NCBI GenBank assembly: GCA_949282305.1
Contig: CASDPB010000011.1
Location: forward strand, 1-64,000
Origin: an uncultured Lentisphaeria bacterium
GTDB lineage: Bacteria; Verrucomicrobiota; Lentisphaeria; Victivallales; UBA1829
Length of the DNA stretch: 64,000 bases
Reading direction: 5' to 3'
Numbering within the stretch: the first letter of the stretch is position 1; each line of letters begins with the position of its first letter. Shown piece after piece: positions 6,166 through 49,945 of this stretch. The notes under the pieces are model-generated. The model did no database searches. It had not been told where the DNA came from and saw nothing but the letters and a program-made list of their open reading frames with translations. The position numbers and the translations under genes were made by a program.

Positions 6166-6289
6166 AAAATCTCCTTTTTGCATGTTGAACATTCGCATCA
6201 ATATATAACATTTCGCAGATAAGGAAAGAGAAATTGAATGAAAAAGATATAAAAAATGTGCTTTCGCATGGTAGTTTTGTGCTCTCCGG

Positions 6290-6892
6290 CTATCTCCTGA
6301 TCTTTGGACCGCTTTTCCTGCGGACCGAGAAGCCGAAATGCCCGAGGCAGCGCCCCAGATCAAAATAATGCCCGTGGACATAAGCCAGGAGACCGTCTTT
6401 CTCAAGGCGGAAACGCCCCTTTTCATCCAGATATGACTCCGATACCTGAACCGCCAGGATATTTGCCAGAAAGAGGGTATGGGAGCCGAGCGGAATTTCC
6501 TGCTTCACCCTGCATTCCAGACCGAGCGGACATTCGCCGATCAGCGGCGCGGAGATTTCAGAGGAGGGCAGGGGAGTCAGATTCCGCTCCTGGAATTTGT
6601 CGTGATCGCGCCCCGAAACAACGCCGCACCAGTCGGTCAGGTTCGCCAGACGTGCTGTGGGGATGTTGAGCGTGAATTCCCCCGTGTCGCGGATGATTTC
6701 AAAGGAATAACGTTCCGGGCGGACTGAAATGCCGAGCATCGGCGGGTCGCTGCATACGATTCCCGTCCATGCCAACGTGATGATATTCTGTTTCCAACCC
6801 CTGCTTCCGCCGCATGCCGCCATGACTGCCGGGAGCGGCGCCAGCTGCGTGCTTCCCCGCCAGACCTGTTTTTTAAAGAGTTTCCCGTTCAT
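6290..6892 (-). CDS. Flavin reductase-like / flavoredoxin family protein
   Basis: This 200-residue protein matches the FMN-binding split-barrel flavin reductase-like family. Near the N-terminus is ITLAWTGIVCSDPPMLGISV, then GEFTLNIPTARLANLTDWCG, the usual flavin-binding segment, and a C-terminal GLLAYVHGHYFDLGRCLG. Such proteins bind FMN and transfer electrons or reduce free flavin. The physiological partner is unknown. The start has AGGAT immediately upstream. It lies between the alpha-galactosidase and fucI genes in the same orientation, with a terminator of fucI in the gap behind it, so it is probably transcribed separately. Confidence 0.85.
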   Translation of the reverse strand: MNGKLFKKQVWRGSTQLAPLPAVMAACGGSRGWKQNIITLAWTGIVCSDPPMLGISVRPERYSFEIIRDTGEFTLNIPTARLANLTDWCGVVSGRDHDKFQERNLTPLPSSEISAPLIGECPLGLECRVKQEIPLGSHTLFLANILAVQVSESYLDEKGRFRLEKDGLLAYVHGHYFDLGRCLGHFGFSVRRKSGPKIRR

Positions 6893-8860: not shown

Positions 8861-8947
8861 AGGACATACCTCCTTGGTTTAGTTTATGAAACTGGAACGT
8901 TTGATTTATATGTCATTTTGCTGCTGCAAATCCTCATTTACTGAAAA

Positions 8948-14348: not shown

Positions 14349-17231
14349 GTGCGAAAGAGAAAGCAGAAAAAAAGTAAAAGAGTGCATGTCGTAATAGCAG
14401 GCGCATTTGTCCTCCTGGCAGGCGGAAGCCTTTATGCTGACGGTTACAGAGCGAATACGGACAATTCCAACTTCAAGACCAATCTGTTGGATAAAAGTGC
14501 CTTTCAGATCAAGGCGACTCCGATTCCCAAGTTCAGCGATCTTTCCAAGGAAAAACTGGATACCAGCGCCGACTCCTATAAATACGTCGGCGCAAACCTG
14601 ATTGCGGAAGGGCATGTCGTCATCCGGTCCGGCAATTTTCAGATTACCTGCGACAAGGCGGTAATCAACCTGCAGACCAAGGATCTTGAGGTTGCGGGAA
14701 ATGTCATCTTTTCCGGAACTGCGTCCTCTCCCGTTACTCTGACTCAGGAGGAATACGAGGAGCTTCTCAAAGATCCGACCTGCCGGGTGGTGGTGAACGG
14801 TGTCACGACCCTGCCGACCGGACGGCAGAAGATCAAGGCAACGGTTTACACGACAGCCGCTTATATGAAAGCGGCGCGGGCTTCGGGAAATCTTGACACG
14901 GGCACGCTGGAGTTCCGGGACTTCATGATCAAGACCGGTCTGCTTTACTGTTCCGGCAGATTTGCGGAGCGTTTCCCGAATGGCAAGATCAAGCTCCATG
15001 ACGCAAAGATGACGACCTGCGAATATGAACTGGACAACAATGCGCACTATTCGATCGGCGCCTCGACCCTGACTCTGGCGCCTCGCGAAGCAAATCGCGG
15101 CGTGACGAATTACAACCCGGATTACGGCGAACATTCCGCATGGGCTTTCAACAATATCCTGAGAGTCTGGGACTTCCCCGTTTTCTGGTTCCCCGCACTT
15201 TACAAGCCTGCGGACTCCAACACTTTTGGCGGCCGTTTCGAGTTCGGAAACACTTCCGCGTGGGGATATTACCTGCGCACCAGCAAGGAACTGGCACTGC
15301 TGGACGAACCGGCTCTGGTAAAGGCGGCGGTCATCCTGGATTTCTATGAACAGCGGGGATTCGGCTACGGAACAACGGCGGATATTCAGACACCGGAGTC
15401 GCTGACCGAGATTTTCGCTTATTCAATTCATGACCGCAATCCTTACGACTACTGGGAAAGCGAACACGGCGATGCTCCCGATGGCATGAGCATGCCCGAA
15501 TGGATCAGGAGAAACAGCCGTTTCCGCATCCCCAAGAATCGTTTTGAATTTAAAATTTCAAATTTGACTCATCTGACCCCCCGCCTGGATTTCCGCGGAC
15601 AGTTCGACAGGATCAGTGATTACAATTTCCTGGAAGACTATTTCGAGGCGCGCTATGACTCCAACATCCAGCCGCCCACATTTGCGGCGCTTGAGTATCA
15701 GGGGGAACGTTTTTCCGCGACTCTCCAGACCGTTGTCAAGGCGAATTCCTTTGACAGCATGGTGGAACGCCTTCCGGAATTCCGTCTGGATTTCCAGCGT
15801 CAGGAGCTGTTCAAGAACATCTATTATCAGGGGCAGTCCAGTGTCGGCTACTACCGGATGGACTGGCGGCGCTATAATTACGACCGTGATGAGAATCTGA
15901 ATTTGAACCTGTCCGGCATCCTGAACCGGGAGCGGGCGAATCTTTCCGCAAACGAAATTGCCCAGGCGACTCAGATTATCCGCAATCAGCATTTGTCAAA
16001 TTCCCAAAAGGCGGCTCAGCTGGCTAGTCTGAATCCCGAAGCCTTTGCCGGATATTTCGAGGATCCGAAAGACTACAGCTCTTTCCGGTTTGATACTTTG
16101 CACATGTTCTACTATCCGATCAAGCTCTTTGATGCGATCAACCTGATTCCGCGCGTCGGCGGCCGTTTTACCGCTTATTCCAAATCGTCGAAAAGGTCTG
16201 TCGATATTGAAGACCTTTATACCATCATCAATGCGGATGAACTTGACGACTGGCCGGATCAGTATTTGAAAGTCCAGAACTATGACGACAAAGGCGGAGC
16301 CCGCTACCGTTTCGTCGCGGAATTCGGTTTGGAGGCGAATACGAAGTTTTACCGTGCGTGGCAGACTCCCAAGAATGCTTTCTGGGAGATTGACGGACTG
16401 CGGCACGTGGCGGTGCCATACATCAATTACACTTTGATTCCTGATCCGACCGTCAGCTACAAGAAACTTTATTATTTCGATGAAGTCGACCAGATCGAGC
16501 GCCAGAATTTCATCCGCTTCGGATTGCAGAACCGTTTGCAGACCAGGCGCGACTCCCAGATTTACGAGTGGATGGCTCTTGAAAACTACTGGGATTTCCA
16601 TTTTGACCGGACGGAAGGATTCAATCATGTCGGGGATCTGGGAACGATTTTCCGTTTCACTCCGTTTGCGAACCTGACCTTTACGACTGATCTTTTGCTG
16701 GACCTCGGCGGCAACAACGAGCATAACGAACAGGTGATCCGCGGCAGGGAAAAGGTCGGGCAGCCCGGTATCTCCAACAAGCTGATCAATCGCTGGAATA
16801 CGACGCTTTCCTATAAAATCACCGAAGACTGGATTGTTTCCGCAAGTTATATGTATTCCGACGGCTATGAGCAGCGCACCGCCTATTCCATGGGGTCGAC
16901 CCTGGCGGCGATCAACTCCACTTCCCGGTTCCGTTCCTACTTCGAGCGCCATCAGTATTTAAGGCTGGCGTTGAATTTCCCCACGCTGATTGATGAACGC
17001 CTGAAGGGAATGATTACCGTCAGCTACGATGTCGAAGAGGCGTTGGTCGAGGATGCCAGATTCACCTTGACCCGTGATTTCCATTGCTGGTATTTCCAGT
17101 TTATGGGCGGCGCATCCTGCGACCGTGACGGCAACGGCGACCGTGACTGGTCCCGTTATCTGAGTTTTGCCGTGGGGCTGAGCGCCATGCCGGGACTCGG
17201 CTTCCATGCCAAGACCGGCGACAGCCTGTAA
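14349..17231 (+). CDS. lptD: LPS-assembly outer-membrane protein (LptD/OstA-like)
   Basis: This 960-residue protein has a basic N-terminus and a signal peptide (HVVIAGAFVLLAGGSLYA). An OstA/LptA-like beta-jellyroll follows (VIRSGNFQITCDKAVI and LEVAGNVIFSG, residues about 95-125). The VWDFPVFWFPALYKPA segment (about residue 275) is the LptD landmark where an intermediate-membrane jellyroll leads into the barrel. The remaining 600 residues are rich in aromatic and charged alternation and should form a large beta-barrel. LptD inserts lipopolysaccharide into the outer leaflet with LptE. The conserved cysteine pairs of enterobacterial LptD are not evident. The start used is GTG, poorly supported by a ribosome site; GTG at 14382 is an alternative that still keeps the signal peptide. 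The gene stands alone. Confidence 0.8.
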   Translation: MRKRKQKKSKRVHVVIAGAFVLLAGGSLYADGYRANTDNSNFKTNLLDKSAFQIKATPIPKFSDLSKEKLDTSADSYKYVGANLIAEGHVVIRSGNFQITCDKAVINLQTKDLEVAGNVIFSGTASSPVTLTQEEYEELLKDPTCRVVVNGVTTLPTGRQKIKATVYTTAAYMKAARASGNLDTGTLEFRDFMIKTGLLYCSGRFAERFPNGKIKLHDAKMTTCEYELDNNAHYSIGASTLTLAPREANRGVTNYNPDYGEHSAWAFNNILRVWDFPVFWFPALYKPADSNTFGGRFEFGNTSAWGYYLRTSKELALLDEPALVKAAVILDFYEQRGFGYGTTADIQTPESLTEIFAYSIHDRNPYDYWESEHGDAPDGMSMPEWIRRNSRFRIPKNRFEFKISNLTHLTPRLDFRGQFDRISDYNFLEDYFEARYDSNIQPPTFAALEYQGERFSATLQTVVKANSFDSMVERLPEFRLDFQRQELFKNIYYQGQSSVGYYRMDWRRYNYDRDENLNLNLSGILNRERANLSANEIAQATQIIRNQHLSNSQKAAQLASLNPEAFAGYFEDPKDYSSFRFDTLHMFYYPIKLFDAINLIPRVGGRFTAYSKSSKRSVDIEDLYTIINADELDDWPDQYLKVQNYDDKGGARYRFVAEFGLEANTKFYRAWQTPKNAFWEIDGLRHVAVPYINYTLIPDPTVSYKKLYYFDEVDQIERQNFIRFGLQNRLQTRRDSQIYEWMALENYWDFHFDRTEGFNHVGDLGTIFRFTPFANLTFTTDLLLDLGGNNEHNEQVIRGREKVGQPGISNKLINRWNTTLSYKITEDWIVSASYMYSDGYEQRTAYSMGSTLAAINSTSRFRSYFERHQYLRLALNFPTLIDERLKGMITVSYDVEEALVEDARFTLTRDFHCWYFQFMGGASCDRDGNGDRDWSRYLSFAVGLSAMPGLGFHAKTGDSL

Positions 17232-17385: not shown

Positions 17386-18771
<1,386 letters not shown>

Positions 18772-18793
18772 GCCGGGGTTCTGAAACATCCAG

Positions 18794-23621: not shown

Positions 23622-25235
23622 TTACTCCTCGTCGTCGCTGCTCCTGCCGAGGATTTTTTCGACTTCATGGAGCAGGTTGCCTTCTCCGAGAATCATCAGG
23701 GAGTCGTGCAGCAGAATTTTTGTGCTGCCGCGCGGCACAACGAACTGATGTCCCCGGCGGATCAGCAGAACGAGAGCGCCCGGAGGCAATCCCAGTTCGG
23801 ACAGCCGTTTTCCGATGAAAGGCGCCGACTCCATGACCTCGAATTCCTTCATTTCTCCGTCGAGAGTCCCCGTGTTTTCAAATTCAAGCGGGACACGGGG
23901 AGAAACCTTGAGCGGTTTGTCCAGCCCCAGGAGCTTTGCAAACGGCATCAGGGTCTTGCCCTGAAACACCACGGAAGTCAAAACGATCAGGAACACGATA
24001 TTGAACATGACGTTGGAATCGGGGATGCTGTCTTTGTACATCAGCGGAAATGTGGCAAGCATGATCGGCGCTCCGCCCCGCAGTCCGACCCAGGAAACGA
24101 AAGTGCGCTCCTTCATGGTGAACTTGCTTCCGATCATGCACAGGAACACGACGAGCGGGCGTGCGACAAACATCATAATCAGGCTGACACCCAGTCCCAG
24201 CCAGATCGCCTTCAGAAGCCCGGACGGAAACACCAGCAGTCCGAGCATACCGAAGAGCGTCACCTGCATCAGCCAGGCAATGCCGTCATGGAAACGCCCG
24301 AGCCCGTATTGATAGGTGAATTTGCTGTTGCCCATCATCATGCCGCAGACATACACCGCCATGAACCCGTTGCCGCGCAGGTATTCCACTCCGAAGCCCC
24401 AGTCGGCGATTCCGTAAGTCAGCAGGACAACGCCGATGCCGATGACGTAGTAAAGTCCGTCATAGTCGAAGTCGATTTTGTCGAAATACCTGGCGGCGAG
24501 CCATCCGATCAGCAGTCCCAGCAGAATTCCGATTCCCATGCGCATGGGGAACGTCCAGAGTATCGACCAGTAGCTTGTAGTCTCCGGGCGCGTGATTACG
24601 TCGATCATGAACAGTGTCAGGAATGTCGCCATCGGATCGTTGCTTCCCGATTCATACTCAAGCAGAGGCTGGAGCTTTCCCTTCAGACTGACGCTTTTGC
24701 TGCGCAGGATCGCAAACACCGCCGCGGCATCGGTGGAGGAGACGATGGAGCCGAGCAGCAGGCACCACGGCAGCGGGTAGTTCAGCCCGAGCAGACGGAA
24801 AAATCCGTAAGCGCCGACCCCCACGGCAACCGCGGTCAGAAGCACTCCGACACTGGAAAGAATACTGCCGTAGCCGATTACGCTCTTTACGGACTTCCAG
24901 CTGGTGTCATAACCGCCGGAATAGAGAATGAACGCCATGGCGATTGTCCCGATGATGTTGGCGGAGAAGGCGTCCTCATAGTAAATTCCGCCGAATCCCT
25001 CGCTGCCGGCAAGCATGCCGACCGCAAGGAACATGACGAGAACGGGGACATTGATCCAGTTCGCGACGCGGCTCAGAAAGTAACTGACAGGTTTTACCGG
25101 ATGCTGGGTGGCGGAGGAAATCCGCCGGGAACAGGCGTTGACAATGCTGGCGAGTTTGCTTGAGGTCGCACCTACAAGAATCAGAACCGCCACGATCGTG
25201 AGGGAAACAGATAGATTGAATGCAAGTTTTTCCAT
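23622..25235 (-). CDS. K+/H+ (or Na+/H+) antiporter, CPA1 family, with TrkA-C-like domain
   Basis: This 537-residue protein has about 12 membrane helices. The ion-binding helix region reads LGSIVSSTDAAAVFAILRS (about residues 155-175), followed by ESGSNDPMA. WVGLRGGAPIMLATFPLM (about residues 370-390) is the conserved CPA1 landmark. A cytosolic C-terminal domain (residues about 435-530, SAPFIGKRLSELGLPPGALV onward) is a TrkA-C/RCK-C-type ligand-binding domain. The overall layout matches the NhaP2/CvrA group of K+/H+ antiporters, which regulate potassium and turgor. The gene is monocistronic and ends about 165 bases upstream of the potA start. Confidence 0.9.
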   Translation of the reverse strand: MEKLAFNLSVSLTIVAVLILVGATSSKLASIVNACSRRISSATQHPVKPVSYFLSRVANWINVPVLVMFLAVGMLAGSEGFGGIYYEDAFSANIIGTIAMAFILYSGGYDTSWKSVKSVIGYGSILSSVGVLLTAVAVGVGAYGFFRLLGLNYPLPWCLLLGSIVSSTDAAAVFAILRSKSVSLKGKLQPLLEYESGSNDPMATFLTLFMIDVITRPETTSYWSILWTFPMRMGIGILLGLLIGWLAARYFDKIDFDYDGLYYVIGIGVVLLTYGIADWGFGVEYLRGNGFMAVYVCGMMMGNSKFTYQYGLGRFHDGIAWLMQVTLFGMLGLLVFPSGLLKAIWLGLGVSLIMMFVARPLVVFLCMIGSKFTMKERTFVSWVGLRGGAPIMLATFPLMYKDSIPDSNVMFNIVFLIVLTSVVFQGKTLMPFAKLLGLDKPLKVSPRVPLEFENTGTLDGEMKEFEVMESAPFIGKRLSELGLPPGALVLLIRRGHQFVVPRGSTKILLHDSLMILGEGNLLHEVEKILGRSSDDEE

Positions 25236-25858
25236 GAATGAAATCCAGAAATATAAGGTTGAAAAAGAAAAATCAGGTAAGGCTGCTCTTCAGGGGAAGC
25301 CGGGGACTGGCGCGGGCGCCGCAGGAACCGGTCGGAACATCGCTGGAAATGTCGTTTCCGGGGAAGGCGCAGTAGCTTTCCTTTCTGGCGGCAAAAGAAA
25401 AATTTCCCGGAAAGCCTTCTGAAATCAGGCTGGAACCGGAACGCGCCGGAAACTGAAAGCAGCTTTTCTTTTTCGGTATCAGGATGATGTTTTTCGATTG
25501 TGCCGCACCGCGGGAACAGGTGACGGCGGATCCTGCCGGAGAAAACATGAAGTCCGTTCTTGAAGAACGGATTCCGGAGTTTCCGCCGGGCAAAAGGCAA
25601 AACGAAGCAAGTTGAATCAGAATGATAAAACGAAGCATTGAAGTTCCCTGTTCCAGCTGAGTTGCCATAAAGTAACATGACGATGAAACTTTTCAATAAG
25701 AAAACTTGAAAAAAATCCTTTTTTGTAATCTGCGGGGGAGGTGTCACGCAGCGGATTTTCCAACGGGGGATGTCCTGCGAAGGAAAACAGGACGGAGAAG
25801 GCTTGCAAGCGGGAAAAATGCGGATATATTGCCGTGAAACGGGAAAGGCTGGATTTGC
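25236..25858. other. Gene-poor stretch of about 620 bases
   Basis: This lies between the divergent starts of the antiporter and the P-loop kinase. Open frames exist on the minus strand, but they lack a ribosome site, family features and sensible composition. An 11-base direct repeat, AAAACGAAGCA, occurs at 25599-25609 and 25627-25637. I see no RNA gene or transposon end. It could be a decayed gene or a long regulatory region. Confidence 0.4.
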
Positions 25859-26368
25859 ATGAAAAGGATTCTGATTGTCGGCTGCGGCGGCGCGGGAAAA
25901 ACCACATTGTCCCGCGCGCTTGGAGAAAAACTCCGGATTCCGGTTTATCATCTGGACCGCTATTTCTGGAAGCCGGGATGGGTGGAGGAGCCGAAGGAGA
26001 AATTTGACGCCGTTCTCGGAGAACTGCTCCGGCGGGATGCGTGGATTATGGACGGCAATTACGGGCGCACGTTTCCCGAACGCCTCAAATATGCGGATAC
26101 GGTGATTTTCCTGAGATATTCGCGCCGGGTCTGTCTCTGCCGCATTCTGAAGCGTTACCTGACTTATCGCGGCAGGACACGCCCCGACCTGACGGAAGGC
26201 TGTTCCGAACGTCTGAACCTTGAGTTCCTGCGCTATATCTGGACTTACAACCGCAGGATGCTGCCGAGGATGGAGGCATATCTGAAAGAGATGCCGGAAG
26301 GATGCGCTCTGCATGTCTTTCGCGATCCCGGGGAAACCGGGGCGTTTTTACGCCGTCTGGAACAGTGA
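25859..26368 (+). CDS. P-loop NTPase, adenylate kinase/topology-modulation-like
   Basis: This 169-residue protein begins MKRILIVGCGGAGKTTLSRA with a Walker A variant at residues 8-15. It continues with IPVYHLDRYFWKPGW and WIMDGNYGRT, which are typical of small kinase-like proteins annotated as DNA topology modulation or FlaR-like AAA proteins. It should bind ATP and probably phosphorylate a small molecule; the substrate is unknown. It is a single gene, convergent with sixA. Confidence 0.82.
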   Translation: MKRILIVGCGGAGKTTLSRALGEKLRIPVYHLDRYFWKPGWVEEPKEKFDAVLGELLRRDAWIMDGNYGRTFPERLKYADTVIFLRYSRRVCLCRILKRYLTYRGRTRPDLTEGCSERLNLEFLRYIWTYNRRMLPRMEAYLKEMPEGCALHVFRDPGETGAFLRRLEQ

Positions 26369-30422: not shown

Positions 30423-33400
30423 TCAGTCTTCGACGAAATAGCGGAACGTCTGTTTCCCGCCTTGTTTGAAGATCAGCGATACTTCAAAGTTCTTGCTGCC
30501 GGAGGGAACATTTACATCGAATCCGACAGTATTGTCTGCTGCCGCACGTCCCCTGATCTGTTTTCCGGACGGCAGCTCCAGAATGGCGGAGTCCGCTTTG
30601 ATTCCGTCAAACAAGGCGAATTCAAGCCGGTTTTCTCCTTTTTTCAGAACAGGCATTCCAATTGCCGCCGCCTGATAGTGTCCATGCCCGTTGAGCAGGA
30701 GCGCCAGAGCCGTGCCGAAGGGGGGCAGCTTGATTGCCGTCTCTTTTCCTTCCGCAGTGAAGGGAATCCGGAAAACTCCCGGATAATCGACGGATACGGC
30801 GTTCACTTCCCGGACGGTCTGATGTTCCGGGTTGACTGTGATTCTTGCATTCTTGTCGAAATCCAGTGTGCCGAGCCGTGAACGCACCGGCGAGATCACG
30901 GTTGCCATATAGGAACCGTCTTTGAGGCGGAAGATGTTTCCGGCGGTGTTCGACGGAAGTCTGATCGCATGTGCATTCAGCACCCAGTCTCTGCCCTTCA
31001 TGATTTCAAAGAGGGGGAGATAACTTTCCGTCACATTTGCCGGATCGTCGTTTTTCGAGACGGGCGAAGTCCACGCGATTACCGGATAAACGCCCCAGGC
31101 AAGCGAGTGCTTGAAGCGGTCTTCAATCGTCTGCTGATTGCCGGTCGTATGCGAAAAGACGATGGGGCGTTTCAGTCCGAAGAACTGGAAGCACTGCGGA
31201 ATGGGATGCACGCCGGGATTTTCAATCAGAACCGCGTCGAGGTTGCGGTAGAGCTCAATTCCGACTGGTCCGTTGGCGTAGGAGCCTTTCCCCTGCGAAC
31301 GTATCAGGCGGTAAGCCTTCTGAAGCATTTCGTCCAGGGCGAAAGCCATTGTAAAGGCGCGTTTGCCGTTGATCATTGTAATGCCGTCGTCATGTCCGAA
31401 ATCCCATGAGATGTAGTCCACGCGGTCGATGAAGACACCGTCCACTGCCGGATAACGCTTCAGCGTTTTTTCCAGTTCTCCGTAGATGTGTCTGCCCCAT
31501 GCCCCGTCCGGATTCTGGTTGAGAACGTAGTGTTCCGGGATGGCGATCGTATAGCGGCCGTCGGCGTTTTTGGCGATGTCGCTCCGGAATTCCTTTTCCG
31601 CATAGGGGATCCACACCTCGCTGGGATTCCAGTAAATGTAGTTGGCGATTCCGTGCTTTTTGAATTCATCAATCGTTTCGCGGTTGCGGGCGTAGGAACT
31701 CCACCAGTTGTGAGGCCAGTTCATGACCTTGAGTGCGGATTTCTCTTTTTCATACCTTTCCAGAGTCCATTGTCCTTTCTGGGACATTGTGCCGTTGATG
31801 AATACCGACCATTCTTCGCGGTTGTCCGGCGCATAAATGCCGTAGAACGGGAAATGTCCTCCGTAAATGTTGATTGCCACGCCGCGCTTTTCCCAGTGGG
31901 CGGCGACTTCCCTGAAATGCTGGTCCGGCCCGGAGAGACACAGCAGTCCTTCGTGCTCGCGGGTCTGCGGCGCCGCAGTGAAATAGTCGGGATAGCGTTC
32001 CAGCATCCAGGCGAAGCCGGGGCGGAAATCGCTTTCATGCGCAACCAGTGCGACTCCGGTATTGATTTTTGATCCCTGCCCGTAGCGGAAGTGTTTGTAA
32101 CGCATCTCCATATTCCCGTTTTCAAGCAGGAAAGAGAGGTCGGGGCGTTTCAGTTCAAAGGGGGAAATAACGCTGAGCCCGAAGTCAAAACGGTCGTTGC
32201 CGAGAATAATCAGCGGCATCAGCATGCCTCCGTCATACCGGTAGCGGATCTCGCCGGCGGAGAGGGACTCAAGAGGGACGCTTTTCGCCAGGGATGTGTT
32301 GAAGACTGTCTCAAACGCCTTCATGATCGGCATGGTATAGGATATTCTCATCTCGCGGTCGCTTGTCGCGGTCGCTGCCGCAAGTTCCGCATCCCAGCGC
32401 AGATGTGCATTGTCCACGCGGAAATATTCCAGGCATTTTCCGCCGTCGGGCAGGGTGCGTGTGATTTCCAGCACAACCGCGCCGTCGCTCTTTCCCTGCT
32501 GTATGGAATGGAACGCGGCGGGAAAGTCCGTGGCTTTTCCGTTTTCCACACATTTGAGATCAAGGGATGCGGGGGCGTTGAGAAGATTCACATACGGTTT
32601 GACATGTTTGGGAACCAGCGAAACCAGTCTGCCGGTATCCGCCGCGACCGCTGCTTCAAAGCGATTGTTGCCGAGGATGTAGAGATTTCCGTTTCTCCTG
32701 AGATACGGCGCGGGAAGAGAGTTTCCTTTTTCAACGAGACTGCCCGGGGTTAAAGCCGCTCTGGCGCTTTCCACCAGGCTTGCATCGTCGAAGCGGATGG
32801 TGCCGTTTGCCTGGAAAAGTCCGAAGATGATGACCAGTTTGCGTGCGTCGGGCAGAGTGCGGATTGTTTTTCCGAATTTCCGGAACGGTGTATTTTCCAG
32901 TATGGTGACGGCATCGACGGATGAGATCAGCTCACCGCGCCCGTTCAGCTGCCATATCGCCACGATTCCGGCGCCTTTGCCGTGTTCCGTGCGTTTTGTC
33001 AGGTTTTCCGTGGATGCCCAGACTGAAAAGTCGTACAGGGCATCCGGCTTGAAGTCACTGACCACATACTGCACATTGCCTTCGCCGTCTTTCGTGCTGC
33101 CGGAAATTCGGAGCGCACCGCCGCCGCTGCGTCCGCCGTCCGGTTCGACGGCGAACATCCTGCTGTTGCCGGTGCATGCCCATGCCGGAGAGAGAGCATT
33201 GCCTTCCGCCAGTTCAAAATCGCCGTTTTCAATCTTGTTGGCTGATTCCGGGGCGATTCCCAGGGAGAGGTCGTCAAACCAGACCGTTCCGTTTGCCTGG
33301 AAGAGCCCGAGAATAATCTTGAGCTGGCGCGTTTCCGGAAGCGTCTTGAATGTTTTCACGTATTTTTTCCAGTCCGTGGATTCCGTGACTGCGACTGCGT

Positions 33401-34250
33401 CAATTGCGGTAAGCAGTTTACCCTGTGCATCCAGCTGCCAGACCGCCGCAAACGCCATTCCGCGTCCGTCCGGTGTCCTGCGGGAAAGATTGGCTGTGCG
33501 CATCCGGAGTTCAAATCTGTAGACTTTGCCCGGTTCTGCGTTGTTGAGCGTGCAGGATATGTTGCCTTCGCCGTCCTTTGTGCTGCCGTCGATCCGGGCG
33601 GAAACCGCTCCTGAAGCCGGATTTTCCGTATCCAGGCTGAACAGGGCGGGATTGCCGGCGTTTGCCCACGGCGAAGAAGCTCTGGAACGGTGTGTCTCCT
33701 CAAAGGAACCGTCCCGGAGCAGATTCTTTATCCCGTCGGCTGATGTCAGGGACAGATTGTCGAAATATGCTGTCCCGTCTGCATCGAAGATGCGCAGGAT
33801 CAGTTCCAGAGAGGCGGCGTCGCCGCGGGTAGTGAACTCTTTTTTGAATTCATGCATTGCATTGGTGCCGCGCTCGTGAAACAGTTCATGATGGGCGATC
33901 GTCTTTCCCGTCTTGTCCTTTTCCACCACTTCGACCAGGGAATAGCCGAGTCCTGTGTAGGTGTTCTCCTTTACTCCCTGCGTGCCGGTGCGTCCGCTCA
34001 GAATCAGTTTGGCTCCGGCGGGAAAGGAACTGATCTGCTGTGAAACTGCACCGAGTTTTGTTCCCCTGCCAGTCAGCACAAGTGCCTTGGAACCATCATG
34101 GATTTCCGTTCGGACCGATGAGGGATCACCGGAAGAACGCCAGTGGGCGGAATCGCTTTCAAAGTCTCCGTTCTGCAGCAGATTCTGCGCCGGAGCTGCC
34201 AGCACAGCCGAGAGCAGAAGTGCCGGGAGTGTGATTTTTTTCATGTTCAT
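30423..34250 (-). CDS. Large secreted carbohydrate-active protein: three CBM-like modules plus TIM-barrel-like domain
   Basis: This 1275-residue protein has a signal peptide (KKITLPALLLSAVLAAPAQ). Three tandem jelly-roll modules of the CBM4/9 type follow (about residues 20-170, 175-340 and 345-505). Each opens with a NGDFE or DGSFE motif and closes with a FDDxSL or FDNLSL motif, the calcium/strand hallmark of this fold. A beta-sandwich (about 505-720) precedes a barrel-like region (about 730-1075) with INIYGGHFPFYG, YWNPSEVWIP and VDGVFIDRVDY; Asp/Glu in these are catalytic candidates. The C-terminus is beta-rich. It does not clearly match a GH family I can name. It is last in the LacI-controlled operon, 18 bases after the GPH transporter stop. 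Confidence 0.8.
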   Translation of the reverse strand: MNMKKITLPALLLSAVLAAPAQNLLQNGDFESDSAHWRSSGDPSSVRTEIHDGSKALVLTGRGTKLGAVSQQISSFPAGAKLILSGRTGTQGVKENTYTGLGYSLVEVVEKDKTGKTIAHHELFHERGTNAMHEFKKEFTTRGDAASLELILRIFDADGTAYFDNLSLTSADGIKNLLRDGSFEETHRSRASSPWANAGNPALFSLDTENPASGAVSARIDGSTKDGEGNISCTLNNAEPGKVYRFELRMRTANLSRRTPDGRGMAFAAVWQLDAQGKLLTAIDAVAVTESTDWKKYVKTFKTLPETRQLKIILGLFQANGTVWFDDLSLGIAPESANKIENGDFELAEGNALSPAWACTGNSRMFAVEPDGGRSGGGALRISGSTKDGEGNVQYVVSDFKPDALYDFSVWASTENLTKRTEHGKGAGIVAIWQLNGRGELISSVDAVTILENTPFRKFGKTIRTLPDARKLVIIFGLFQANGTIRFDDASLVESARAALTPGSLVEKGNSLPAPYLRRNGNLYILGNNRFEAAVAADTGRLVSLVPKHVKPYVNLLNAPASLDLKCVENGKATDFPAAFHSIQQGKSDGAVVLEITRTLPDGGKCLEYFRVDNAHLRWDAELAAATATSDREMRISYTMPIMKAFETVFNTSLAKSVPLESLSAGEIRYRYDGGMLMPLIILGNDRFDFGLSVISPFELKRPDLSFLLENGNMEMRYKHFRYGQGSKINTGVALVAHESDFRPGFAWMLERYPDYFTAAPQTREHEGLLCLSGPDQHFREVAAHWEKRGVAINIYGGHFPFYGIYAPDNREEWSVFINGTMSQKGQWTLERYEKEKSALKVMNWPHNWWSSYARNRETIDEFKKHGIANYIYWNPSEVWIPYAEKEFRSDIAKNADGRYTIAIPEHYVLNQNPDGAWGRHIYGELEKTLKRYPAVDGVFIDRVDYISWDFGHDDGITMINGKRAFTMAFALDEMLQKAYRLIRSQGKGSYANGPVGIELYRNLDAVLIENPGVHPIPQCFQFFGLKRPIVFSHTTGNQQTIEDRFKHSLAWGVYPVIAWTSPVSKNDDPANVTESYLPLFEIMKGRDWVLNAHAIRLPSNTAGNIFRLKDGSYMATVISPVRSRLGTLDFDKNARITVNPEHQTVREVNAVSVDYPGVFRIPFTAEGKETAIKLPPFGTALALLLNGHGHYQAAAIGMPVLKKGENRLEFALFDGIKADSAILELPSGKQIRGRAAADNTVGFDVNVPSGSKNFEVSLIFKQGGKQTFRYFVED

Positions 34251-34268: not shown

Positions 34269-35642
34269 TTAAAGTTGTTTTTCCTGCGTATTTTCAGAGA
34301 GTTGTTTCATGAATGCGGCGGTAAGCGGATATTTGAGCAGCAGCAATGCCGCAAGCGTCAGTCCGCCGCCGATGCCAATGACGAAAAACAGCCGCATGGC
34401 AAGGAGAACGCCTTCCCCCTGCGCCGCACCCGCTTCCTGTCTGAATCCCGTAAGGTTGAGGACAATTCCGGACAGGGCAATGCCGAGCGTGATGCCTGCC
34501 TTTCCCGCCCAGGAGAACAGGGCGGCTATCACGCCGTCCCTGTGAAGACCGTTCGTCTTGAAGTCATATTCGCAAACGTCCGCGGTCATCGCCATCAGCA
34601 GCATCCAGAGTCCGTTCAAACCCGGCAGCAGCACCAGACTGACTGCGACTGACAGATACGGGCATTCCGGTGTATAGAGAAACCAGCTTGAGGCTGCACC
34701 CGCCGCACTGAACAACAAAAGTGCAATCAGTGCATTGCGTTTGCCGAATTTTGCGGACAGCGCGGTCATTGCCGGAAGCAGGACGAATGAGAATATGACG
34801 GAAAAGGTCGGTCCGAGTCCTATGTAATAGGCTCCCTCTGCCGTATCGCCTGCGCAGACATAATAAATGATGATATAGGTTCCCAGCGAAGATACCGCCA
34901 GGAAACCGAGAACGCCGATGACCAGTGCTCCCGCAATAATCATGAAGGGGAAGAGCTTGAACGTGGACAGAACGTCGCGCAGACGTATCTTCGGGCGCTC
35001 CTGATGGACGGAAGTTTCAACGCTGCGCGCCAGAAAGACCGGGCCGAGCGAGGAGATCATGAAGAGGATTCCCATGCCCGCGGCACAGCACCGCATCCCC
35101 ATCAGCTGATCCGGAAACACGGGATTCTGAGTCAGATAGTAAAGCCATGGCAGGAGCAGTCCGCCGATGTTGACGAAGAACATGCGGTAAGCCATCAGGC
35201 GCGTTCTCTCTTCGTAATCCGAACTCAATTCATAGCCGTAGCCAATGTAAGGTACGCAGTAGACAGTCGTTGCCAGGAAATAGATCACGGACATGATTCC
35301 GAAATACCAGAGGTATTGCGCCGGACTCCATCCGGAAGCCGGAAACATCCAGACCAGCACGAAGCAGACCGCCGCCGCAACGGCGCCGCCGAGCATATAA
35401 GGTTTCCGTGCGCCCCATCTGCTGCGGGTGTTGTCGGAAATATATCCCATCAGCGGATCGGTCAGGGCGTCCGTCACCCGTGTGACTGCCATGATGATGC
35501 CGAGCATGACCGGGTCAAGCCCCATGTAGATGTTCATGATCGGCATTGCCATCATCGGCAGGGCGTTCTGCATGTTGTTTTCGGCAATGGCGCCGAATCC
35601 GTAGCCCGCCTTGTCTTTGAAGTGCAGCGGAGAAGTCTTCAT
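34269..35642 (-). CDS. MFS sugar transporter, glycoside-pentoside-hexuronide (GPH/MelB-like) family
   Basis: This 457-residue protein has 12 membrane helices. GPH hallmarks include [17 protein letters not shown] at the N-terminus, [20 protein letters not shown] (loop 2-3, residues about 63-82) and [13 protein letters not shown]. It would import a glycoside by cation symport. Its start overlaps the pseudopilin stop by 4 bases (ATGA), and the CBM protein starts 18 bases after its end. Its product is therefore likely the importer of sugars released by that secreted protein; the specific sugar is unknown. Confidence 0.92.
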
Positions 35643-36598
35643 TTGTCAATCGTCCACATCCCGTAAATGTCGTTTCCGCCCCGTATGGGGAAGGGATTCG
35701 GCGTGGTGTCGCGATAGGCAAGGAACTGCACATGCCCGTCTGCGAAGGCATAGTTGGAGGAATTGACGCGCTTGTGCATTTTTGCGTAAACGCCGTAGGC
35801 TTCAGGCGAATAGTCCGCGTAGACATAGGCGGCGGTGCCGGAGGAGGGGGAACCGGCGATATTGGTCTGTGTCCAGTGTTCGCAATAGGAGATTGTGGTG
35901 GACGGATGAGTGACCTGGGAGAAAGGACGTCCGCAGACACCTCTGTTGACGCCGTCCCACTGGCTGACGATGATCGAATAGGAACGGGTGCCGGCGGTAG
36001 GCGCGTTGCTGGACGGGCATTTTACGTGTTTGCCGCGTCTGCCTTCATACATTGTGTCGTTGGTGACGGAAAAATGTTCTGCAATCTGCGCATCATATCC
36101 CCAGCCGGTGTTGTCGGGAAAATGACCTTTGTTGTCATCGGCATACAGAGTTGTGGCAAGCATGACCTGTTTGAGCTTTGAGGCACAGGTGGTGACTCTT
36201 GCCGACTCTCTGGCGACATTCAGCGCCGGCAGCAGCATTGCCGCTAAAATGGCGATGATCGCAATCACGATGAGGAGCTCTATGAGGGTGAAAATCCGTA
36301 TTTTCCCCCTGCGAAGGAAGAATCTCGAACAGAGAACAGGGAAGTAAGAAGTAGAAAAACATTTGAACAGTGGAACATTAGAGCAATTCAATAATGGAAG
36401 GAAGAAAGAAGATGGATGAGCAGGGGACTGGCAACGTCCTGTCCTGCCTTGCTGCCGGAATGAAATACCATTTTTGCAACTTTCCCTCATGATGAGCTTT
36501 ATCAGGGTGAAAATTCCTGTTGTCCCACGTGTTTTCCCGTCTGCGGGGAATGGAGAAATGTGACACTTCCTGCCTTTCATAAGACTTTCGCTGTCCAT
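35639..36598 (-). CDS. Pseudopilin-like secreted protein with an unusual long leader
   Basis: This 319-residue protein has a type II/IV prepilin helix, [16 protein letters not shown], but it begins about 100 residues in instead of within the first 10-15. An earlier, broken copy, FTLIKLIM, occurs around residue 30. The mature domain is Cys-containing, with [10 protein letters not shown] and a C-terminal [12 protein letters not shown] resembling the H-X9-DG motif of PVC prepilin-like proteins (spacing here 11). The ATG at 36598 has AAAGG at proper distance, so the long leader may really be translated; a shorter start is not obvious. It is first in the operon with the GPH transporter (4-base overlap). 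Role unknown; it is probably envelope or surface associated. Confidence 0.78.
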
Positions 36599-36791: not shown

Positions 36792-36805
36792 TTGAAACGT
36801 TTTAA
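36792..36805. promoter_or_regulatory. LacI-type operator before the pseudopilin operon
   Basis: TTGAAACGTTTTAA has the AAACGTTT core of LacI-family sites and differs at one base from the perfect palindrome upstream of lacI. It lies about 195 bases before the pseudopilin ATG. Confidence 0.6.
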
Positions 36806-36816
36806 TATAATAATTA

Positions 36817-37764
36817 TTATTTCACTGTATTCCTGACAACCAGCCGGGGAGCCAGAAGACGATGATAATGCTCCTCGCCGTTGAGCATCGCCAGGATTCC
36901 CTGCACGGAACACTGCCCGAGTTCCTTCTGCTGCTGGCTGATGGTTGTCAGCATGAATTCCGGCCGTCCGGCAAGGTCGATGTTGTCGAAGCCTATGACG
37001 GAAATGTCTTCCGGTACTCTTATTGCTTTCATTCTCAGCATGTAGATGAGATCAATCGCCTGCAGATCCGAATAGGCGAGAATCGCATCGACGGGGAATC
37101 GTTCCGTCATTGCGACCGCCTCTTCCGGAGTGCTGAATGGCAGAAGATCGGCGTCCGGATATTCCTGCACTGCCTTCCGATTGCCCGCATGGCGCAGCGG
37201 ATCAATATTGCAGCTGAGCAGATGTCTGTGCCGACGTTCGAGCAGAAATTTCGCCGCCATGTAACCGCCCGCAAAGTTGTCCGTGATGACCGAAGAAAAT
37301 TTTTCGTCGCAGTAAGTGGAACAGAAGAGATACGGAATATGACGTTTCTCAAATTTTTCCCGGAAAGGAACGAATTTCGCGTAGGGGAGGGAGAGTATCA
37401 ATCCGTCGATCTTTTTTTCCAGGAGAATCTTCATCTGATTCTGAAGCATGAAATCCTTGTCCCCTGTCGATGCGATGGTTGTCAGGAGCCCATAGTTGTG
37501 CTGCGCGGCCTCCAGACCGACAGCCTGCATGATGTTGTTGAAGAAGGAGAGGTTGACGCCTTCCAGCACATAGCCGATCAGTTTGCTGCGGTTTGACTGC
37601 AGTCCGCGTCCGAAATTGTTCGGCATGTAATCGGACTGGTCCGCCAGTTCCAGAACTTTGGCACGGGTTTTCGGGGAGACGACCGGAGAGCCGTTGAGTG
37701 CAAGACTTACGGTCGCCGGTGACACCCCCAGCCTCATTGCCATTTCCTTGATTGTCGTCGGCAT
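36817..37764 (-). CDS. LacI-family transcriptional regulator
   Basis: This 315-residue protein opens with the LacI DNA-binding helices: TTIKEMAMRLGVSPATVSLA then the hinge region (KVLELADQSDYMPNNFGRGL). The periplasmic-binding-like sensor domain is evident from VIGFDNIDLAGRPEFMLTTI. It should repress or activate sugar genes on binding a glycan-derived ligand. The frame extends 24 codons upstream, but the ATG at 37764 has GAGGAG. A perfect operator lies just upstream (37780-37795), consistent with autoregulation. A second operator downstream implies control of the pseudopilin-transporter-CBM operon. Confidence 0.93.
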   Translation of the reverse strand: MPTTIKEMAMRLGVSPATVSLALNGSPVVSPKTRAKVLELADQSDYMPNNFGRGLQSNRSKLIGYVLEGVNLSFFNNIMQAVGLEAAQHNYGLLTTIASTGDKDFMLQNQMKILLEKKIDGLILSLPYAKFVPFREKFEKRHIPYLFCSTYCDEKFSSVITDNFAGGYMAAKFLLERRHRHLLSCNIDPLRHAGNRKAVQEYPDADLLPFSTPEEAVAMTERFPVDAILAYSDLQAIDLIYMLRMKAIRVPEDISVIGFDNIDLAGRPEFMLTTISQQQKELGQCSVQGILAMLNGEEHYHRLLAPRLVVRNTVK

Positions 37765-37779: not shown

Positions 37780-37795
37780 ATTAAAACGTTTTAAT
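37780..37795. promoter_or_regulatory. LacI-type operator in the lacI leader
   Basis: ATTAAAACGTTTTAAT is a perfect 16-base palindrome, 15 bases before the lacI start codon. Binding would block lacI expression. Confidence 0.65.
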
Positions 37796-45945: not shown

Positions 45946-48900
45946 TTACTTTGCCTGTGCTTTCAGCACCGCATAATTCAGCATGAAGAAAGGAGGTCCG
46001 GAAACATTGCCGGAATCCGCAGTGTTGGCAATCGTGAGAGAGTTGGCGCCTTCCTTCAGGACTCCTGCCGGAATTTTAAACTTTTGAATGTTCCAGCCGA
46101 AGCGTTTGAACGGATTTTTCCCCTCGAATATGAGATTGCCGTTCATTTCGATTCTGATCGGACACTGTTCTGCGCTGTCGTCGTCCTGTCCGCAGATGAC
46201 CAGCTCATACTGCTGATTCAACTTTTCCGCCTGCAAAGGGAAGCCTGCGGTCATTTTCGGGATTTTCGTTTTCTTCCCTTTCACGAATGTGGCGAGCCGC
46301 TTTTCGCAGCGGTAGGTGTAAAAAAGCGGATTGGCGCCGCCGCCGAAATCGTAGGCTGTCAGCAAAATATCCTTGTCATGCTGAAAACCAGCTTCTTTTG
46401 CAGCATACTGCCGGACCTGTTCCGTGTTTTTCGTGAATATTCCGGAATCAATATTCCCGGCTTTTTCAAGACTCCGGCGGAACAGATTGAAGAAATTGCG
46501 ATAGGTGGTCCATTTGTCCAATTCCGGATTCTGTGCGGCGGCGGGATTGTAAATTTGTTCTGCACGTTCTATAATTGCACGGATTTTCTGTTGGTTTCTG
46601 ATGAAGTAAGGAGTGACCTGATAGCCGAATTCATTCATCTTCTGGAGTTCCGCCGTAACCTTCCGTGCCTCCGTCAGACTCTTTTCGCCGATCAGAGAGC
46701 AGAAAGCCTGCCGGATGGAACGTCCGGCGTCGTATGCCTTCGGATTATGCCAGTAGTCTGCAAAAGTCAGAGTCAGCATGAGGAAATGCGGCTGATTGGT
46801 TCCCAGCAGAGCACCGGCGATTTCATTTTCCATTCCCTGATAATACCACTGCGGCCATGCGTTGATTTCTTCCGTGAAAAAGTGCCAGCGTTCAATATTG
46901 GGGCCGCCGCCGAAAATAAGGATGAACGGAGCACGCCCGTAACTTTCTTTTGCCCATTTCAGGTCGGATGGCTTGATTTTTGTGGAACATACGCTCGGTC
47001 CGTTCCAGGTGAATCTGATTTCCGGGGACAGTTTCCTGACCCGTTTCAGATATTCATCGCGGTCATCGGGGTAGGCGGGTGCGGCTTCCGGACCCCAGTA
47101 CATCGGCGGACAGAAATAGATTTTTGCCTCCGGGTATTTTTTCCACAGCTTTTCCGTGATTCCGCTTATGAACGCATAATCGGCATCGCCGCCGTTCGGA
47201 TATTTTTCCGTCTCCTTGATATTGCGGGGATAGCGGGCATCATCGTATTGGAACATGAAACTGCCGCCGTTGGAAACAACATTTTCCGCCTGACGGTAAA
47301 TGATTTCAAAATCGGCGGGGGAGGAACTGTCTAGCTTTGTCTGCGGAGTCCCTTCAATGGCATGTGTCGTGACACACCACTCAATGCCGAGAGAAGTGAA
47401 GAGTTCTCCCATTTCCCTGTAATCGGCGATATACTTTTCAGAGGATACTTCTTTCCACTTTTTCCAGTTTCCCCGGATGTCCGTCATGTCCCATGGGCGA
47501 ACCAGCAGCATGATGTCAAGTTTGTACAGAAGATGCAGTTTTGCCCATTCCCTTTTGGTTATCTTTTTGAAATCGCTGACACCGCTCCAGTATCCGCGGT
47601 GTTTTGTCGCCGGGTAATCATAAATTTCAGCGGAGCGCACGGCTGGACCGTTCTTTGTTGCATCGGTCAGTTGGAGAAAGGAACCTGTCGCCCAGCTCAG
47701 ACCCGTCTTGTCGAATGCTTTCAAAGTGATCTGCTTTTGTTCTGCATTGGCGCTCAAATAATAGGCCTGTGCTCTGGGATGCCGGTCTTTGGAAAGCTGC
47801 AAGGTAAGATTGACGGCATTCTTCAATGGTGTTTTCCCTACACTGCTTGTGCCGCCGAGTTCCGCGATGCGCTCCTGTATGAATTGAATCCGCAGGTCGT
47901 CAGCCGCGATTCCGTCGGGGATGATGCGGACATTGTTCAGCGGAATCCATCGTTCGCCGTAAACTGCTTTCTGCGGCGCGGGGTAGACGGCGCCCATGTA
48001 ATGCGGGAAAGAGATCGCATATTTTTCCTTTGCCGCAGCCCCCGTGGGTTCTGTCAGTGTTTCAGCGCTGTTTCCCCAGCGGACTTCACTTTTTCTGTCA
48101 CGGTTGATGCCGGAGATCAGAAACAGCCCCTCTTTGAACTTGAATGTATGGACATCCGTCAATCCGGTCTTGAGCGTTGCGGCAGGTTTGTCGAATTTGC
48201 CTTTCCGGAAAATCCGCAGGACACCGGTTTTGCGGTCGATCAGATAAAGTGCGCCTTTTTCGATTACCGGAATGCCGTTTCCGGGAATCACGAGGTTTGG
48301 CGATGCTTCGTTTGTAAAACCGGTCGGTGAGTTCTGAAAAAAGATGTAAGTTTTTCTGCTTGCCCTGCCATATTCCGGGAGTGTTGCCGCCGCGATGTCC
48401 GGGCGCGCATCATCATTGAGGTCGCCGATGGCAATGTCACTGACGATCAGAGGTGTTTTCAATTCGACAAATTCACTCAGTTCTTTGGGGATGAATTTCA
48501 TTTTTCCGTAAAACGGTGCATAGTACAGACGGATCAGCGGCTGGCTCTTCACAGTGAAGACGGCATCCATTTCATCGTCCATGTTCAGATCGCAGAAATA
48601 TCCTGAATTATTGTTGTTCTGCTGCGGACCGTAAAAATAGCCGTGCTGGATTTTATCCGGGGGAGTGAAACGGCGGAGACAGGCTCCGTGAAGAATGTCG
48701 AATGATGCCCCGTCAGGCTTTAGACTGCCGGTAAAACAATTTGCCGTCCATTGGTTTGCGCTCTGGTTGACGAAGGCGGTCTTGAACTGATCGTCCGGAT
48801 TGAAAATGAAGATTCTCTGTCTGCTGCCCGTTACAAGAATATAAGTTTTTCCGCCGGCGGTTCCCGTATTCAGATTACTGCTTCCGGCACCGTCCTGAAT

Positions 48901-49152
48901 TGCCGTGACAATATCCGCTTTTCCCGTGGCGCTTCCTTTGCCTCCGAGATAAATTTCCAGCTGCTCTTTTCCATTTTGAACCGTGAGCAGAATGACATCC
49001 GGCTGTTTGTCGCTGTTGACGTCGGCAAGCTCCGATTTCAGAATCTTTGATTGCGGTGTCAGGTTTCCGGCTGTCAGGTGCGCAATGCACAGAAGCAAGC
49101 CTGAAAAAATTATGATCCCTTTGCTGATACACATGTATATGCACCTTTCCAT
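45946..49152 (-). CDS. Secreted FG-GAP/beta-propeller protein with GH84-like glycosidase domain
   Basis: This is a protein of about 1068 residues with a signal peptide (SKGIIIFSGLLLCIAHLTAG). The N-terminal 330 residues carry FG-GAP/VCBS-like repeats, for example SELADVNSDKQPDVILLTVQ and DIAIGDLNDDARPDIAAATL. A GH20b-like domain (about 375-490) precedes a barrel (about 500-800) with YDYPATKHRGYWSG and FMFQYDDARYP. The adjacent Asp637-Asp638 fit the paired Asp of GH84 beta-N-acetylglucosaminidases/hyaluronidases. A beta-sandwich ends the protein. It probably cleaves N-acetylhexosamine from host glycans at the surface or periplasm. Starts at 49134 and 49182 are also possible; 49152 keeps a moderate ribosome site. 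It is last in the GntR-pseudopilin operon. Confidence 0.68.
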   Translation of the reverse strand: MERCIYMCISKGIIIFSGLLLCIAHLTAGNLTPQSKILKSELADVNSDKQPDVILLTVQNGKEQLEIYLGGKGSATGKADIVTAIQDGAGSSNLNTGTAGGKTYILVTGSRQRIFIFNPDDQFKTAFVNQSANQWTANCFTGSLKPDGASFDILHGACLRRFTPPDKIQHGYFYGPQQNNNNSGYFCDLNMDDEMDAVFTVKSQPLIRLYYAPFYGKMKFIPKELSEFVELKTPLIVSDIAIGDLNDDARPDIAAATLPEYGRASRKTYIFFQNSPTGFTNEASPNLVIPGNGIPVIEKGALYLIDRKTGVLRIFRKGKFDKPAATLKTGLTDVHTFKFKEGLFLISGINRDRKSEVRWGNSAETLTEPTGAAAKEKYAISFPHYMGAVYPAPQKAVYGERWIPLNNVRIIPDGIAADDLRIQFIQERIAELGGTSSVGKTPLKNAVNLTLQLSKDRHPRAQAYYLSANAEQKQITLKAFDKTGLSWATGSFLQLTDATKNGPAVRSAEIYDYPATKHRGYWSGVSDFKKITKREWAKLHLLYKLDIMLLVRPWDMTDIRGNWKKWKEVSSEKYIADYREMGELFTSLGIEWCVTTHAIEGTPQTKLDSSSPADFEIIYRQAENVVSNGGSFMFQYDDARYPRNIKETEKYPNGGDADYAFISGITEKLWKKYPEAKIYFCPPMYWGPEAAPAYPDDRDEYLKRVRKLSPEIRFTWNGPSVCSTKIKPSDLKWAKESYGRAPFILIFGGGPNIERWHFFTEEINAWPQWYYQGMENEIAGALLGTNQPHFLMLTLTFADYWHNPKAYDAGRSIRQAFCSLIGEKSLTEARKVTAELQKMNEFGYQVTPYFIRNQQKIRAIIERAEQIYNPAAAQNPELDKWTTYRNFFNLFRRSLEKAGNIDSGIFTKNTEQVRQYAAKEAGFQHDKDILLTAYDFGGGANPLFYTYRCEKRLATFVKGKKTKIPKMTAGFPLQAEKLNQQYELVICGQDDDSAEQCPIRIEMNGNLIFEGKNPFKRFGWNIQKFKIPAGVLKEGANSLTIANTADSGNVSGPPFFMLNYAVLKAQAK

Positions 49153-49171
49153 GTTATTGTTCCGTTCTTTC

Positions 49172-49945
49172 TTACTTGTCATACCACATGCCGGTATTTG
49201 CGATGTTTTTCACCGGTTCGGATATGTACTGCATCAGGAAAAAGAGCTGGTCGCCGTTGTTCAGACCGTAACTGCCGCTCCATTTCGCATACGCTTTTTT
49301 TGCAATGTTTTTCAGGGAACGGACTGCTCCGTTTTCAAAACCTGCGAGAAATGTCCAGTTATGTGGAAATGTCGGATAGACTCCCGCATACGGGGAACAA
49401 TAGAGCAGTGCTCCGTTTGGATAGTTGCCCAGTCTGTATCCCCAGCGGTTTTTATCTGAATTGATATTGGCATAGGTGCCTTTGATATCAGTGGCTCTCA
49501 GATTGTAGGAGGCGTTGAAAAAAACATCTTTCTGCTGAGGGCAATGTTTTAAATTATAAGAGACTTTCTGTCCCCCGGTGATGTAATCCGGTTTTTTCCA
49601 GCCGGGGCATTGCAGTGCCCCGGGAGAAACATATTTGCTTTCCGTGAATAAGCCTGCTACTGTAGTTCTGCACCATATGCCATTCTGATAAACCAGATAT
49701 GCCCGCTGCCACGCTGCTGCAATGCTGTTGCTGTGAGTTTCCGTGGGTCCGTATTCTTTGTTGTCGACCGAATAGGAGGATATTCCAGTAAGAATTTGCC
49801 TCATGTTTCCTGTACATGCGGCAACTTTCGCCTTTTCCTTCGCCACATTGAGTGCAGGCAGGAGCATTGCGGCAAGTATGGCGATGATCGCTATTACAAC
49901 TAGAAGTTCTATCAATGTGAAGGTTTCCCTGTACGGCTTTTTCAT
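49172..49945 (-). CDS. Pseudopilin-like secreted protein
   Basis: This 257-residue protein begins MKKPYRETFTLIELLVVIAI, a prepilin signal of ordinary length. The usual Gly before the Phe is replaced by Thr, and the pilin Glu5 is kept. The mature domain has a conserved ALNVAKEKAKVAACTGNMRQ helix. Its C-terminal HNWTFLAGFENGAV is a variant (H-X9-NG) of the H-X9-DG motif common in PVC prepilin-like proteins. AAGGAG precedes the ATG. It lies 12 bases downstream of the GntR regulator and overlaps the open frame of the GH84-like gene, so all three are in one operon. The function is not established; it is likely an envelope-anchored partner of the glycosidase. Confidence 0.85.
   Translation of the reverse strand: MKKPYRETFTLIELLVVIAIIAILAAMLLPALNVAKEKAKVAACTGNMRQILTGISSYSVDNKEYGPTETHSNSIAAAWQRAYLVYQNGIWCRTTVAGLFTESKYVSPGALQCPGWKKPDYITGGQKVSYNLKHCPQQKDVFFNASYNLRATDIKGTYANINSDKNRWGYRLGNYPNGALLYCSPYAGVYPTFPHNWTFLAGFENGAVRSLKNIAKKAYAKWSGSYGLNNGDQLFFLMQYISEPVKNIANTGMWYDK

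Follow-up and report, generated by a model that had tools for sequence, protein, structure and literature searches.

In the GH151 α-L-fucosidase ALfuk2, the nucleophile D154 and the acid/base E235 lie at the ends of barrel strands 4 and 6, with roles assigned by mutagenesis, structure, docking and quantum mechanics/molecular mechanics calculations in the accessible part of PMC10154630, which describes the mechanism of this glycoside hydrolase (GH) family as probably retaining, without experimental demonstration. Mfuc3, a protein with a GHL6 domain, is reported as a fucosidase in the available excerpt of PMC4723247, and the GH36 enzyme FpGalNase has two essential residues, D463 and D532, which are 69 positions apart (PMC11762096, in its accessible part). 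For GH66, the accessible part of PMC12446779 yielded no catalytic residues, and that of PMC11087588 mentions DSSM_1, an unstudied protein that is predicted to have a GH66-like barrel and matches no PDB sequence. Here we describe a gene located on a stretch of 64,000 nucleotides (the window; positions 1 to 64,000 of contig CASDPB010000011.1, assembly GCA_949282305.1) from an uncultured Lentisphaeria bacterium. It is a genuine open reading frame (ORF), opening with ATG and encoding a 1275 aa protein (Table 1), which is probably a secreted retaining α-glycosidase carrying three carbohydrate-binding modules (CBM) of the CBM_4_9 type, from a family uncatalogued in Pfam, NCBIfam and the PDB and distantly related to GH66 and GH151. 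The modules, the family, its invariant acid pair and the alignment of this pair with GH66 and GH151, the fold of the models, the gene order and the operator-like repeats are direct results of computation; we infer the retaining chemistry, the α linkage, the secretion of the protein, the regulation of the gene and the uptake of the product.

The C-terminal 780 aa of the window protein define a coherent family, which comprises 40 non-redundant relatives (profile E < 1e-80 before redundancy was removed), mostly 18–29% identical, from Lentisphaerota, Kiritimatiellota, Planctomycetota, Armatimonadota, Omnitrophota and Ratteibacteria. In the resulting 41-row alignment, Asp942 is invariant in 40/40 and Glu1010 in 38/38 of the rows that have a residue at the position, and the two acids are separated by 67–70 residues in all 38 rows having both; one or both columns are missing from the truncated rows L034, L061 and L063. 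Tyr873 (41/41), Gly938 and Asp955 (40/40 each), and Asn993 and Asp1005 (38/38 each) are also invariant, while Arg743 is kept in 39 of 40 rows. The original prediction had pointed to a barrel-like pattern with the motif VDGVFIDRVDY and other acidic strand ends, and had proposed to examine the Asp and Glu residues of the barrel. This pattern is borne out: the motif (aa 936–946) includes Asp942 and ends predicted strand 4, and Glu1010 ends strand 6. Asp942 is the predicted nucleophile and Glu1010 the predicted acid/base, assignments drawn from sequence comparison.

When searched by sequence, this part of the protein could not be placed in any catalogued family. No Pfam match was obtained at E<=1 with aa 496–1275, nor any match among PDB sequences at E<=1 with the whole protein, and the family profiles gave no NCBIfam match for the catalytic part. 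Against PDB sequences, a 28-member family profile gave three non-significant matches (E 0.25–2.6) and a 35-member profile none. GH30 was rejected as a candidate, its PDB sequence matches being weak (E 0.25) with the best stretch on the C-terminal beta region. In the open-access literature text searched, no description of the C-terminal family was found. In agreement with this, the earlier inability to name a GH family stands, and its proposal of a possible new family gains support if new is taken to mean uncatalogued in Pfam, NCBIfam and the PDB, as judged from sequence and predicted models. CAZy numbers some families that are absent from Pfam, which counts for the possibility that the family is already listed there, with the same mechanism, and has no Pfam or NCBIfam model or close solved structure; the lack of a significant solved-structure match by sequence with the family profiles and of an NCBIfam match with the catalytic part speaks against this possibility, which we regard as unlikely, yet the most serious of those weighed here.

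Structure prediction gave a similar picture for the window protein and for L046, a 653 aa relative that lacks the extra modules. The model of aa 496–1275 reached a predicted local distance difference test (pLDDT) of 79.3 and a predicted template modelling score (pTM) of 0.81, and that of L046 reached 93.9 and 0.93. Both display a beta-sandwich, an eight-stranded barrel and a C-terminal beta domain; in the barrel an Asp comes just past strand 4 and a Glu ends strand 6, the strand numbers being our assignment from the element lists of the models. Foldseek and VIA-align 2 placed both models with FpGalNase (GH36), the GH66 dextranases and CITases (cycloisomaltooligosaccharide glucanotransferases), and GH129. 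The FpGalNase matches had Z scores of 27.2 and 23.8 over 578 and 577 residues; ALfuk2 ranked third in both VIA lists (Z 24.8 and 22.0 over 362 and 376 residues); the GH66 structures scored about 21–23 over about 380 residues, and GH101 was present in the Foldseek lists of both models. Since α-amylases also reach Z of about 18–21 over about 330–360 residues, the barrel alone is not specific, and the three-domain matches (GH36, GH129) are more telling. The original prediction had called for profile and structure-prediction searches, and these gave no clear match to an existing GH family while pointing to the fold of retaining α-glycosidases, and not to a non-catalytic one.

Profile alignments were used in order to compare the family with described ones. 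The reference sets of GH66 (7/9 sequences kept), GH129 (19/25), GH36 (20/25), GH42 (21/25) and GH101 (4/5) retained only sequences that agreed with a single seed, and those of DUF6259 and GHL6 contained 25 unfiltered sequences each, the longest ORF per locus, of which a few (e.g. L093, L103, L105) are possibly in wrong frames and can only lower the counts. With the seven GH66 rows, 354 columns aligned at a score of 94.5% and both acids fell in register: Asp942 aligns with D303 of L118, which corresponds to D308 of CITase (Asp in 3wnk, Ala in the D308A structures), and Glu1010 with E365 of L118, conserved in 7/7 GH66 rows. With GHL6 (PF14871) the score was 96.6% over 178 columns, and Asp942 and Glu1010 align with GHL6 D181 and E262, each present in 21/25 rows. 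A GHL6 member matches 6tvk (ALfuk2) over nearly its full length (E 7e-161), and the D154–E235 spacing of 81 is the commonest among the GHL6 rows; the step from the GHL6 columns to the D154/E235 numbering rests on that spacing. Reversed-profile controls gave 0.1–0.4%. GH66 scored 93.6% against GHL6 and 94.8% against DUF6259, and the similarity of these scores indicates that our family is about as distant from the three as they are from each other. In Pfam, the window protein matched neither PF13199 (GH66; E<=1, cut-off 23.7 bits), nor PF14871 (cut-off 35 bits), nor PF19773 (DUF6259; cut-off 28.7 bits). Among 28 family members, 2 matched PF13199 weakly (best E 0.017), 8 matched PF14871 weakly (best 3.3e-5; top L005 at 24.5 bits, all below the gathering score of 35) and 3 matched PF19773 (best E 8.1e-5).

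The presence of CITase structures among the fold matches, together with the 354-column GH66 alignment, also raises the question of whether the protein could act by transglycosylation, as the cyclodextran-forming enzymes of GH66 do, and not as a hydrolase. This appears improbable, since the hydrolytic GH66 dextranases score equally in fold and a predicted secreted protein next to an uptake symporter would better suit breakdown.

Several observations weigh against the proposed relationship to GH66 and GH151, or against extending it to the window protein. The GH66 profile link falls to just 14% when two GH66 rows are used instead of seven. A control barrel, GH42, scored 45.6% in an alignment of 93 columns that stops at Asp942, short of Glu1010, so that part of the profile signal is generic barrel. 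The highest profile score, 97.1% over 321 columns, was obtained with DUF6259 (PF19773), which has Asp942 in register and a DG-x-x-x-D motif on strand 4. However, an acid occupies the Glu1010 column in 1/25 of its rows among the letters listed, while its own conserved Glu (21/25) is on strand 5, one column past Asn993 and aligned with a Glu of GH129; the window protein has Gly994 there, next to the invariant Asn993. DUF6259 was rejected as the family on account of this second acid on a different strand. GH36 provided the top fold match, with all three domains of FpGalNase (8x1b, 9ayu) aligned in a comparison that rests on predicted models only; it differs by its identity of 10–11% and by its second acid, an Asp in FpGalNase and a Glu in our family, and was rejected for want of a PF02065 Pfam match or profile support (0.2% against PF02065 members). 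GH129 and GH101 were rejected as well, because their fold matches came with profile scores of 9% and 1.2%, the latter from a set of only 4 rows.

The position of the window protein within its family must also be considered. It is a divergent member: in a quick tree it stands on a long branch (1.76 changes per column) with no firm placement, and it carries a different residue at 26 columns conserved in 75% or more of the relatives, including Glu795 to Ile, Trp904 to Ile and Trp742 to Phe. For these reasons, the function of the family need not hold for it. A catalytically inert copy, or one retuned into a binding protein, would be consistent with these deviations, the changes of Glu795 and Trp904 included; but both predicted catalytic acids are kept together with Tyr873, Gly938, Asp955, Asn993 and Asp1005, the frame is open and the operon structure is present, which makes such a loss of activity quite improbable.

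The window protein starts with MNMKK, followed by a hydrophobic run with AAPAQ at its end, a layout that is signal-peptide-like by eye, and residues 3–34 weakly match the N terminus of a secreted protein in NCBIfam (E 0.0039); the protein is thus presumably secreted. Three stretches match PF02018 (CBM_4_9), with a whole-protein E of 1e-18 and 68.4 bits against a curated cut-off of 25.9. Modules 2 and 3 share 67/160 identical residues (42%), and module 1 shares 43/151 and 44/152 with modules 2 and 3 (about 28% each), which would fit a later duplication of one of the two closer modules. These results bear out the earlier claim of three similar CBM4/9-like modules; the avid binding of a polymer that was read from them is a possible property. 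No CBM_4_9 match was found by Pfam in any of 34 other family members scanned, of which some locus ORFs are possibly incomplete, and another scan, of 27 members, agreed, so that the triple module is, as far as seen, peculiar to the window protein.

The distribution of the family was assessed with several queries. Among 288 genomes sampled across the phylum, 15 had a match to the C-terminal part, the source genome of the window included; the whole protein found one in 22 of 61 close genomes, many via the CBM part only. In a scan of named genomes, 19 of 28 pattern matches coded for relatives, in Lentisphaeria, Kiritimatiellota, Pirellulales, Armatimonadota, Omnitrophota and Ratteibacteria. No second copy was detected in the source genome, where the next family-profile matches have E values of 5.5e-4, 0.047 and 0.2, the first overlapping a GHL6 match. 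A phage origin was rejected: two viral-contig stretches matched the search pattern and neither codes for a relative. One member, L003:1366-4050 (-), lies in an open frame with two N-terminal ACT domains, an odd pairing of an amino-acid sensor with a glycosidase-like part, which may be a real fusion or result from a lost stop.

Table 1. Features of the CBM-GH gene, its operon and related loci (window coordinates unless a locus is given)
Feature	Position	Strand	Basis
Whole gene, CBM-GH protein, secretion predicted	30423..34250	-	ORF + Pfam
Signal-peptide-like N terminus, aa about 1–21	34188..34250	-	direct sequence reading
CBM_4_9-like module 1, aa 20–174, boundaries approximate	33729..34193	-	Pfam + sequence comparison
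CBM_4_9-like module 2, aa 175–334, boundaries approximate	33249..33728	-	Pfam + sequence comparison
CBM_4_9-like module 3, aa 335–496, boundaries approximate	32763..33248	-	Pfam + sequence comparison
Beta-sandwich domain before the barrel, aa about 500–740	32031..32753	-	window model; same region in L046 model
(beta/alpha)8 barrel, predicted catalytic domain, aa about 761–1085	30996..31970	-	both models + fold matches
Asp942, predicted nucleophile, end of barrel strand 4	31425..31427	-	invariance + GH66/GH151 nucleophile columns
Glu1010, predicted acid/base, end of barrel strand 6	31221..31223	-	invariance + GH66 Glu, GHL6/GH151 acid/base columns
C-terminal beta region, aa about 1095–1275	30426..30968	-	window model, low confidence from aa about 1190
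GPH/MFS_2 sugar:cation symporter, 18 bp upstream of CBM-GH gene	34269..35642	-	Pfam MFS_2 E 1.2e-57
DUF1559 pseudopilin-like gene, 4-bp overlap with symporter gene	35639..36598	-	Pfam SBP_bac_10 E 4e-7, N_methyl
LacI-type operator-like inverted repeat, between regulator and operon	36792..36805	.	pattern search
LacI-type regulator, upstream, same strand	36817..37764	-	Pfam LacI, Peripla_BP_3
LacI-type operator-like perfect inverted repeat, in front of regulator	37781..37794	.	pattern search
DUF5107 gene beside relative L046	L046:7074-10085		
DUF5107 gene beside relative L049	L049:3384-5393		
DUF5107 gene beside relative L051	L051:7486-9432		
DUF5107 gene beside relative L058	L058:7558-9516		

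The genes next to the CBM-GH gene suggest transport and local control. The symporter scores 159.9 bits with the NCBIfam gph model, under its cut-off of 231. The start of the LacI-type regulator was judged from the sequence to be an ATG; its ORF is listed to 37836 from a TTG. LacI sites are typically palindromes with a central CG. The pattern TTRAAACGTTTYAA occurs at two sites only in the 4.36-Mb assembly, the two repeats of Table 1, with none for the backward-read control, and a one-mismatch search within the window returned the same two sites (0.01 expected). We infer that these repeats may be operators of the adjacent regulator. Some 75 aa ahead of its intact prepilin-like start, the pseudopilin-like ORF contains another such start that is broken and may be left over from a duplication of the N terminus.

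The neighbours of the relatives, from 30 ORFs scanned, point to no single substrate, and some of these ORFs had no matches or housekeeping ones only. DUF5107 was found at L046, L049, L051 and L058, GH123 at L046 and L058, GH20 and heparinase II/III at L053, BNR at L048, GH116 and GH95 at L052, and GH42 at L057. In four Lentisphaeria loci the DUF5107 gene is directly downstream of the family gene, and this repeated pairing suggests a joint function. The GH123 and GH20 neighbours would also suit a β-N-acetylhexosaminidase-like enzyme acting on host glycans by substrate-assisted catalysis. GH123 has an adjacent Asp-Glu motif, according to the accessible part of PMC11087588, but a motif of this kind is not among the conserved columns of our family, whose invariant acids lie on different strands, 67–70 residues apart; we therefore consider such an enzyme very improbable.

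Elsewhere in the window, outside the CBM-GH operon, the ORF 45946-49182 (-) encodes a 1078 aa β-N-acetylglucosaminidase-like protein with NAGidase and GH20b domains, and 4558-6426 (-) shows a distant Melibiase match (GH36/27-like; E 6.5e-11 over 66 residues). Four long ORFs have no Pfam match at E<=0.001, namely 14349-17231 (+), 17398-18789 (-), 7280-8944 (+) and 25181-26314 (-); some of them overlap opposite-strand ORFs and are maybe not genes.

For the secreted retaining α-glycosidase that we favour, a simple sequence of events can be proposed. The three CBM_4_9-like modules would hold the enzyme on its carbohydrate, a glycosyl-enzyme would arise by attack of Asp942 on the anomeric carbon, and Glu1010 would serve as acid/base. 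The released mono- or oligosaccharide could then enter the cell via the adjacent GPH symporter, in an operon that the LacI regulator, with its two local operators, would switch on.

Altogether, the comparison with described systems makes the family a probable distant relative of GH66 and GH151. With GH66 it shares the barrel, a DG-x-h-x-D motif whose strand-4 Asp is the nucleophile (predicted in our family) and, about 60–69 residues further on, a conserved Glu; the GH66 fold matches span only about 380 residues, from the barrel onward. With the GH151 α-L-fucosidases the strand-4 Asp, the strand-6 Glu and a strand-5 Asn are all in register; the spacing of the two acids is mostly 81 in GH151 and 67–70 in our family, and GH151 has its own domain order, the barrel being followed by a Rossmann-like domain (PMC10154630, accessible part). 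We lean, with some reserve, towards a broader view in which this is a GH family outside the list of CAZy, occurring in at least six phyla according to the titles of the submitters, whose strand-4 Asp and strand-6 Glu would unite GH66 and GH151 in one lineage with its acids on strands 4 and 6, distinct from a strand-4/strand-5 lineage that contains GH129 and DUF6259, and whose window member would have moved to a new polymer with its added CBMs. A named residue pair, and 38 predicted enzymes that keep it in gut, rumen, groundwater and other bacteria, would give ground for a search for new α-glycosidase activities. Likewise, whether the acid/base sits on strand 5 or on strand 6 could provide a rule for sorting hypothetical hydrolases, such as those of DUF6259, GHL6 and the family described here, among the CAZy lineages.

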